Below are positions 25,517 through 27,462 of a stretch of 64,000 nucleotides of DNA, piece by piece. The translations under genes were made by a program, and so were the position numbers. Each line of letters opens with the position of its first letter. Positions within the stretch are counted from its first letter, which is position 1. The notes beneath the pieces are model-generated. The model searched no databases. It was not told where the DNA came from and was given only the letters and a program-made list of their open reading frames with translations. This DNA is from Natronospira proteinivora. GTDB taxonomy: Bacteria > Pseudomonadota > Gammaproteobacteria > Natronospirales > Natronospiraceae. Where the stretch lies: positions 1,426,001 through 1,490,000 of the forward strand of contig NZ_JALJYF010000001.1 in assembly GCF_024170465.1 (NCBI RefSeq), given 5' to 3'.

Positions 25517-26368
25517 ATGAATAACTCCTCATCCAAGCGCCTGGACCAGTTGCAGCAGTGGGCTGTACGGGAACTGAGCGGAGTCAGCGACGAACCCCGG
25601 CTGGAGGCCCGTATCCTGCTTGCTCACGCCAGCGGCCTGGGCAACACCACCCTGATTGCCTTCCCCGAGCGGGAGGTGAGCGAAACGCAAGCGCGGTCCT
25701 TTCAGGCCCTGGTCAGACGACGTGCCCAGGGGGAGCCGGTGGCCTACCTGACTGAAGGGCGAGCATTTTGGACCCTGAACTTGAAAGTCGGGCCCGCCAC
25801 GCTCATCCCCCGGCCGGAAACCGAACGCCTGGTGGAGCTGGCCGTTGAGAAACTGCCCCGGGAAGGCGTACGGGCCCTGGACATGGGCACCGGCAGCGGC
25901 GCCATCGCGCTTGCCCTGGCCAGCGAACGCCCTGCCTGGACGGTACTGGCCAGTGAAATTAACCCCGACACCTTGGCAATGGCCCGGGAGAACGCCCGAA
26001 ACCTGGGGCTGACCATCGAGCTTATCCAGTCGGACTGGTTCGAGGCCATCCAGGAAAGGGAGCTGGACCTGATCGTCTCCAACCCCCCTTATATCCCCGA
26101 CAACGACCCGCATCTGGGCCAAGGCGATCTTCGCTTCGAGCCCAGTGGCGCCCTGGCGGCCGGGGCCGATGGCCTGCGAGACATCCGTCGCCTGGTCGAG
26201 GACAGCCCCCACCATCTTCGCTCGGGAGGCTTTCTGATGCTGGAACACGGCTTTGACCAGGACCAGGCCGTTCGCGAGCTGTTGGAAGGGGCAGGCTTTT
26301 GCCGGATCGAGACCCACAAGGATCTGGCCGGGCACCCGCGGATCACTACTGCCTGCTTGTACAAGTAA
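25517..26368 (+). CDS. prmC: Release-factor glutamine methyltransferase
   Basis: This 283-residue enzyme methylates the GGQ glutamine of release factors with S-adenosylmethionine. The N-terminal helical domain is followed by IPRPETERLVE, the SAM-binding loop LDMGTGSGAIALALA and the catalytic NPPYIPDND. A GTG two codons earlier is an alternative start. prmC normally follows prfA directly; here four minus-strand genes lie between. The stop codon falls in the loop of a 14-bp inverted repeat. Confidence 0.95.
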   Translation: MNNSSSKRLDQLQQWAVRELSGVSDEPRLEARILLAHASGLGNTTLIAFPEREVSETQARSFQALVRRRAQGEPVAYLTEGRAFWTLNLKVGPATLIPRPETERLVELAVEKLPREGVRALDMGTGSGAIALALASERPAWTVLASEINPDTLAMARENARNLGLTIELIQSDWFEAIQERELDLIVSNPPYIPDNDPHLGQGDLRFEPSGALAAGADGLRDIRRLVEDSPHHLRSGGFLMLEHGFDQDQAVRELLEGAGFCRIETHKDLAGHPRITTACLYK

Positions 26369-26385
26369 TAGTTGTACAAGCAGGC
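26351..26385. repeat. Perfect 14-bp inverted repeat over the prmC stop codon
   Basis: Arms GCCTGCTTGTACAA (26351-26364) and TTGTACAAGCAGGC (26372-26385) with a 7-base loop that contains the prmC stop. No T-run follows, so it is not a standard terminator. Each arm carries a copy of CTTGTACAAG or a near copy, a 10-bp palindrome in its own right. Confidence 0.8.
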
Positions 26386-26464
26386 AAATTAAGGCAACTT
26401 TCTGCTCAACCAAGGGTTTCCCCCTTGAATGGGCAAAATTTTCACCGAAAAAACGACACAATTC

Positions 26465-26490
26465 ACTTGTAATCGTACAAGTATAGTATA
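26465..26490. promoter_or_regulatory. Palindrome ACTTGTA-N4-TACAAGT with a TATAGTATA element
   Basis: The 7-bp arms lie at 26465-26471 and 26476-26482 and repeat the CTTGTA/TACAAG theme of the inverted repeat 80 bases upstream. TATAGTATA directly after it (26482-26490) could be a -10 region. I see no good -35 at the right distance, so an activator- or repressor-controlled promoter is only a suggestion. Confidence 0.35.
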
Positions 26491-26494
26491 GGCT

Positions 26495-26707
26495 TTGAAC
26501 TGTGCTCCACAGCCATGTGGGCACCGCCGGATCCGGGTAGCTCCCCCCTGCCCCATCCGGTGGCCGACGGCAAGAAGCACACAAAACGTCGGCGATTAGA
26601 AGAAGCCGGGACAACCGGCCACCCTTCCGACAGGCGAACGCTGCAAGGATGCAGATGATGCAAGCAACTCCCCACCGGGACCCTTACCCCAGGGTCCCGT
26701 TTTTTTT
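26495..26707 (+). ncRNA. Putative structured small RNA between prmC and moeB
   Basis: No ORF here looks like a protein. From about 26520 the plus strand can form four stem-loops in a row: CACCGCCGGAT with ATCCGGTGG (26522-26532, 26555-26563, one mismatch), CCGACG with CGTCGG (26564-26569, 26587-26592), GCCGG with CCGGC (26605-26609, 26615-26619) and CTGCA with TGCAG around an AGGA loop (26641-26654). A strong terminator closes the row. The AGGA in a loop resembles a CsrA/RsmA site. It does not match 6S, 4.5S, RNase P or tmRNA as I know them. The alternative is a structured 3' end of the prmC transcript. The 5' end is a guess from the TATAGTATA element. Confidence 0.35.
26676..26707 (+). terminator. 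Strong intrinsic terminator upstream of moeB
   Basis: A perfect 9-bp stem CGGGACCCT / AGGGTCCCG (26676-26684, 26691-26699) with loop TACCCC, followed by eight T. It ends about 17 bases before the moeB start, so moeB needs its own promoter or read-through. Confidence 0.95.
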
Positions 26708-26724
26708 GGCGTTACAATGGGGGG

Positions 26725-27462
26725 ATGGATACCATTCGCTATGCACGCCATCACGCCCTGCCGGGCTTCGGAGAGGCGGCCCAGGACCGGCTTGGACAAG
26801 CCCGCGTCCTATTGCTGGGCGCCGGGGGGCTGGGATGCGCCACCGCCGCCTATCTCACCGCCAGCGGCGTGGGTGAACTTCGAATCGCCGACTTCGACAC
26901 CGTCGATCTGGCCAATCTTCAACGCCAGATTCTCTACCGCAGCGAGCAAACGGGCCAGGATAAAGTCGATGCGGCCATGACCCACCTCTCGGCCCTGAAC
27001 CCTGAGATCCGGCTCATCGCCCTGCGCGAAAGAATGGACGAGGATTCCCTGCGCGCGCAGGCCGCCGAGGTGGACCTGATCGTGGATGGCTGCGATAACT
27101 TTCCCACCCGCTTTGCGGCCAATCGGGCCGCCGTGGCCACGGGCACGCCCCTGGTCTCGGGCGCAGCCATCCGCTGGCAGGGCCAGCTGGCCGTTTTCAC
27201 CCCGGACACCGGCTGCTACGCCTGCCTATTCGAGGAAACCGCCGTGGAGGAGGACATGGGCAACTGTGCGCAGAATGGAGTGTTATCGCCTCTGGTGGGG
27301 GTAGTGGGCAGCTTGCAGGCAGTGGAAGCCATCAAGCTGTTGACCGGCCAGGGCCGGCACACGGCCGGCCGACTTCTGCGCTATGATGCCTTTTCCGGTG
27401 AGTGGCGCCAGAGCAGATTCGCCAAAGACCCCAATTGTCCCGTGTGTGGAGACCCGGCATGA
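26725..27462 (+). CDS. moeB: Molybdopterin-synthase adenylyltransferase (MoeB/ThiF/HesA family)
   Basis: The protein has 245 residues: a nucleotide-binding loop LLLGAGGLGCATAAYL (about 29-44), DFDTVDLANLQRQILY, the adenylating DGCDNFPTRF, and two Cys pairs for zinc (CYAC and CPVC). MoeB activates the C-terminal glycine of MoaD by adenylation; ThiF does the same for ThiS, and sequence alone does not fully separate them. Its place after prmC supports MoeB, as in Pseudomonas-type gene order. It overlaps the next gene by ATGA. Confidence 0.88.
   Translation: MDTIRYARHHALPGFGEAAQDRLGQARVLLLGAGGLGCATAAYLTASGVGELRIADFDTVDLANLQRQILYRSEQTGQDKVDAAMTHLSALNPEIRLIALRERMDEDSLRAQAAEVDLIVDGCDNFPTRFAANRAAVATGTPLVSGAAIRWQGQLAVFTPDTGCYACLFEETAVEEDMGNCAQNGVLSPLVGVVGSLQAVEAIKLLTGQGRHTAGRLLRYDAFSGEWRQSRFAKDPNCPVCGDPA

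Follow-up and report, generated by a model that had tools for sequence, protein, structure and literature searches.

The prmC-moeB gap and its features

Natronospira is a genus of soda-lake bacteria, and prmC and moeB are household genes. We analysed a window of 64,000 nucleotides of Natronospira proteinivora DNA, to which all positions refer; it starts within an apparent transposase gene (positions 1-600, judged by eye). In this window the prmC stop codon (26368) and the moeB ATG (26725) are separated by a gap of 356 bases. The initial annotation saw no credible open reading frame in the gap, and the comparison agrees with it in that no reading frame is common to the three Natronospira species. 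A small protein gene, either alone or as part of a dual-function RNA, is exceedingly improbable: a 47-codon frame does begin with an ATG at 26515, but no frame is kept across the species, with stops and frame-shifting single-base length changes in the core, and they share no common start codon. The features that were assigned to the gap are the following.

26350..26386, plus strand: long hairpin that spans the stop codon of prmC (TGCCTGCTTGTACAA / TTGTACAAGCAGGCA), from direct sequence
26465..26492, plus strand: conserved promoter-like block ACTTGYNNTNGT-N10-TATAG, from sequence comparison
26499..26707, plus strand: predicted small RNA of about 209 nt, its start placed from the -10-like element and its end from the terminator
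26502..26524, plus strand: hairpin SL1; one relative has a hairpin at the equivalent place, and the sequence is not conserved
26525..26562, plus strand: hairpin SL2, apical part C-rich (CUCCCCCC), from folds
26563..26593, plus strand: hairpin SL3, in whose stem two pairs are changed on both sides within the genus, from folds
26598..26605, plus strand: purine-rich single strand AGAAGAAG, compatible with an Hfq site of the ARN-repeat type
26605..26619, plus strand: hairpin SL4, GCCGG/CCGGC, from folds and covariation
26620..26637, plus strand: near-invariant linker CACCCTTCCGACAGGCGA, a candidate pairing region, from the alignment
26641..26654, plus strand: hairpin SL5, CUGCA-AGGA-UGCAG, whose ARGGAU fits the CsrA-site consensus, from folds
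26666..26675, plus strand: conserved single strand AACTCCCCAC 5' of the terminator, from alignment and folds
26676..26707, plus strand: intrinsic terminator with a 9-bp stem and eight T; the stem sequence varies and the pairing is kept

The perfect 9-bp terminator just before moeB that had been described earlier is present as CGGGACCCT-TACCCC-AGGGTCCCG (26676-26699) followed by eight T (26700-26707), and its stem is the longest among four terminator-like sites in 3.5 kb, a distance in which shuffles predict 2.7 such sites of any strength. It is preceded by successive plus-strand stem-loops, as claimed, although these number five and not four, and the AGGA loop is that of the last of the five (26641-26654). 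On the RNA strand, positions 26495-26707 fold at -88 kcal/mol compared with -68.9 +/- 4.4 for shuffles (z -4.38, with 0 of 200 shuffles as good), while the opposite strand of the region gives a z of -2.2. ARN repeats are one type of Hfq site, and the purine-rich single strand between SL3 and SL4 is a candidate for it. On all main points the initial annotation of the element is accurate.

The hairpin across the prmC stop codon (26350-26386) is a perfect 15-bp stem that probably forms the end of the prmC transcript and lies outside the small RNA. Its halves, TTGTACAAG, look like the palindrome of the promoter-like block.

Upstream of the predicted start there is a -10-like TATAGG (26487-26492), and the sequence element that was said to sit at the start of the RNA is found as TATAGTATA at 26482-26490. 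The block 26465..26492 also includes the palindrome ACTTGTA-ATCG-TACAAGT (26465-26482), which exists as claimed; it lies just upstream of the start that had been given for the RNA and is not conserved in the third species, GTACAA being retained in two of the three. With the palindrome only partly conserved, we can do no more than infer that the RNA is regulated. Without mismatch, ACTTGYNNTNGT-N10-TATAG occurs once per genome in all three Natronospira genomes, always at this RNA; one mismatch allows one more site in two of the three genomes, and the reversed control gives none. Because these three sites served to define the pattern, its uniqueness is informative and its presence is not. A standard scan detected no sigma-70 promoter upstream of the RNA. 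The usual spacing between -35 and -10 elements is 16-18 bases. Here the gap from TTGYNN to TATAG is 14 bases, conserved and unusual, and may point to an activator or another sigma factor. By comparison, this putative promoter, free of mismatches in all three genomes and at this locus alone, speaks in favour of a separate transcript start.

Conservation and folding in three Natronospira species

All three Natronospira genomes, that of the window and those of both other species examined, carry this RNA between prmC and moeB; the PrmC proteins of the two relatives are about 56-57% identical to that of the window. Conservation along the three-species alignment is uneven. The spacer upstream of the RNA (26380-26439) has drifted, with 10 of 60 columns invariant, and the prmC coding sequence (26100-26339) retains about half of its columns (120 of 240). 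The promoter block (26460-26499) keeps 21 of 40 and the 5' hairpins (26500-26599) keep 28 of 100, and in the core (26600-26639) 34 of 40 columns are invariant. This distribution points to a functional RNA whose 5' half changes fast and which has an upstream signal of its own.

The folds of the three orthologues have z values of -4.0, -5.0 and -3.4, and none of 200 shuffles was as good for any of them. In alignment A3, double changes occur in 5 of the 17 named pairs, a count that was matched by 2 of 500 shuffles, with slid controls giving 0 to 2; with only three orthologues there is little covariation to judge by, and the shuffle counts should not be read as probabilities, so this result is supportive rather than proof. 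SL3 has two doubly changed pairs when it is read from the folds as well. For this reading the arms of the stem-loops were taken from the folds by eye, with SL1 omitted and SL2 of the third species represented by 5 pairs only, so that pairing is in that count by construction. The stems are kept with compensatory changes, which is the conserved pairing in relatives that a separate RNA had been predicted to have.

It is very unlikely that the gap is ordinary untranslated DNA that consists of the 3' end of prmC and a terminator and lacks a separate RNA. G+C-rich gaps often contain hairpins, but prmC apparently has its own hairpin at its stop codon, and plain spacer is not expected to show a core more conserved than coding sequence, a conserved promoter-like block and covarying stems.

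SL5 is the weakest of the conserved stems, as it is not picked by RNAalifold and is absent from the minimum free energy (MFE) fold of the third species; it was retained on account of the outer pair, which reads U-A, G-C and C-G across the three species. The same outer pair bears on the idea that the RNA binds CsrA and that the ARGGAU in the SL5 hairpin loop titrates or recruits this protein. The loop reads AGGA, AGGA and GGGA at the equivalent place and is closed by an A-U pair, and CsrA is encoded in all three Natronospira genomes. RNAs of the CsrB/RsmY type titrate CsrA, and the present RNA is like CsrB, CsrC and RsmY in having an ARGGAU hairpin and in coming from a genome that encodes CsrA. 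It differs from them in having one common site instead of many, and the MFE folds contain 1, 1 and 0 GGA hairpin loops. The passages of PMC9111926 that deal with CsrA recognition give the published site as ARGGAU in a hairpin loop and describe multiple CsrA sites on CsrB and CsrC, whereas the SL5 site is the only one common to the three species. Additionally, shuffling alone produces a GGA hairpin loop in 45 of 200 and 23 of 200 cases, the third species' MFE fold is without one, RNAalifold on the core favours other pairs at SL5, and none of the Rfam families was matched at the gathering score. We rate the CsrA reading as unlikely.

The position of the terminator raises the question of whether the element is a cis-acting leader of moeB, an attenuator or riboswitch in which the terminator halts transcription unless a signal stops its formation. 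The T-run ends 17 bases 5' of the moeB ATG, moeB is the next gene in all three species, and in each of them the 5' arm of the terminator can partly pair upstream without the 3' arm, two of them using the adjacent C-run. This alternative pairing is about 4 bp, however, far weaker than the 8-9 bp of the terminator, and differs in the third species; the alternatives are short and dissimilar among the three species and include no conserved antiterminator. The distance from the RNA to moeB also varies among the species, and the three have TACAAT, TAAAAT and TAGAAT boxes in the interval from the terminator to moeB, so that the gene may possess a promoter of its own. Elsewhere in the order, the moeB loci that were read are without the RNA. 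We consider a moeB leader rather improbable.

The gap very probably holds a conserved gene for an independent small RNA of about 209 nt. The free-standing RNA that had been proposed is supported by comparison, given the conservation of the promoter-like block, the fold and the intrinsic terminator, and the non-coding character of the sequence.

Distribution and known RNA families

An Rfam search of the window and both relatives, at gathering and permissive thresholds, gave no credible match. The best match within the RNA was potC, at 19.5 bits compared with a cut-off of 44, which is attributed to chance. The RNA is similar in length to 6S RNA (RF00013), but the 6S gene is elsewhere in all three genomes, and the only match to this family in each genome is at that other place.

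A covariance model (R1) was built from the three Natronospira RNAs and run over 19 genomes of the order. The three Natronospira loci scored 130.8, 116.9 and 107.9 bits, and the next best matches, spread over 15 of the 19 genomes when E up to 1 was allowed, scored 19.9 bits and below. Over 369 genomes of the class, R1 gave one further match at E <= 1e-4 (28.2 bits, E 2.1e-5). This match, positions 1501-1580 of locus L043 from a distant gammaproteobacterium, contains a 33-base stretch with 79% identity to the RNA of the window. By eye the locus has no terminator of similar strength and no matching neighbour; of its family relatives, one gave an unrelated 18-bit match and another none. On this evidence the L043 match is probably due to chance.

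The exact core pattern was found in six contigs of the genome_contigs collection, of which only PWMQ01000076.1 from Natronospira sp. CSSed10_283R1 scores with R1, at 107.9 bits. Among the remaining contigs, 14.4 bits is the maximum for three, and two are absent at E up to 1. The RNA was not found in plasmids, and two viral contigs that carry a 16-base core had R1 scores not above chance. In the sister genus of the family, the assembly breaks in moeB at a contig end, and a search for prmC did not recover the true gene, the best candidate being 31% identical. No convincing relative was found outside Natronospira, and the RNA appears to be genus-restricted as far as the searches reach, with the sister-genus locus being broken. 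Among the papers mentioning Natronospira that a literature search listed, none has small RNAs as the subject of its title or of the abstract shown.

Candidate modes of action

We infer the transcription, targets and mechanism of the RNA from its sequence and from known systems. It has traits of trans-acting sRNAs in general, namely an intrinsic terminator and a non-coding sequence of conserved structure. The closest comparison is with sX13 of the Xanthomonadaceae, which in the sections of PMC3771888 that describe it is 115 nt long, has three C-rich hairpin loops, lies downstream of polA and uses its C-rich loops to act on G-rich motifs near start sites. Set against that description, both RNAs are free-standing and strongly structured, carry C-rich unpaired motifs, belong to one lineage and keep a constant neighbour gene while the flanks vary. 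The Natronospira RNA differs in its length of about 209 nt, in its location between prmC and moeB, and in having one conserved C-rich hairpin loop together with C-rich linkers. An Rfam scan of this stretch up to E = 10 gave no sX13 homology, although Rfam may not contain an sX13 model.

By analogy with sX13, the RNA would expose C-rich stretches in the SL2 loop, in the ACCCUUCC linker and in the ACUCCCC before the terminator. These would pair with the G-rich ribosome-binding sites of several mRNAs and block their translation, as sX13 of Xanthomonas does. We give this pairing mechanism about an even chance, and the combination of a free-standing trans-acting sRNA gene with C-rich pairing slightly less than that. 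Unpaired CCCC runs amount to 13, 13 and 9 nt in the three species compared with shuffle means of 3.4, 4.3 and 4.5; of 200 shuffles, 5, 5 and 30 had totals this large, so that the third species shows a weak excess. The linker CACCCUUCCGACAGGCGA hardly varies. Its near-full complement (at most two mismatches) has 4, 10, 5 and 8 sites in the window genome (G000), the two relatives (G002 and G001) and the sister genus (G003), the RNA gene itself being counted in G000, G002 and G001; the reversed control has 10, 11, 11 and 8. There is no enrichment, and so no target was found among near-full complements in these four genomes.

The moeB 5' G-run GGGGGGA (26719-26725) could pair with the C-rich loop UCCCCCC of the RNA (26542-26548), and moeB could then be a target in trans. 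This idea is weak because ribosome-binding sites are often G-rich.

The predicted sRNA gene is new and belongs to a familiar type of regulator; it would provide a concrete, previously unannotated regulatory RNA gene in Natronospira. A lineage-restricted RNA at a fixed place between two conserved genes offers a usable case for the origin of sRNAs, and also for asking whether the C-rich kind arose on many separate occasions. A more speculative proposal, which we regard as a long shot, is that a new sRNA family was born in Natronospira that combines C-rich stretches directed against ribosome-binding sites with a CsrA-binding hairpin and a 14-base-spaced promoter that perhaps needs a dedicated activator. 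If true, such a family would link regulation by base pairing with the Csr system.

Some further observations concern the neighbouring genes. The TACAAT directly past the RNA terminator is 6 bases 5' of the moeB ATG (TACAATGGGGGGATG, window 26713-26727; TAGAATGGGGGAATG in the relative L005) and is a possible promoter for a leaderless moeB transcript. Likewise, prmC has a TAAACT 6 bases ahead of an ATG. A second moeB-like gene is located outside the window in the same genome, about 100 kb upstream (C1:1349624-1350358); it is 45% identical to the window moeB, and a second copy is also present in both Natronospira relatives and in the sister genus.
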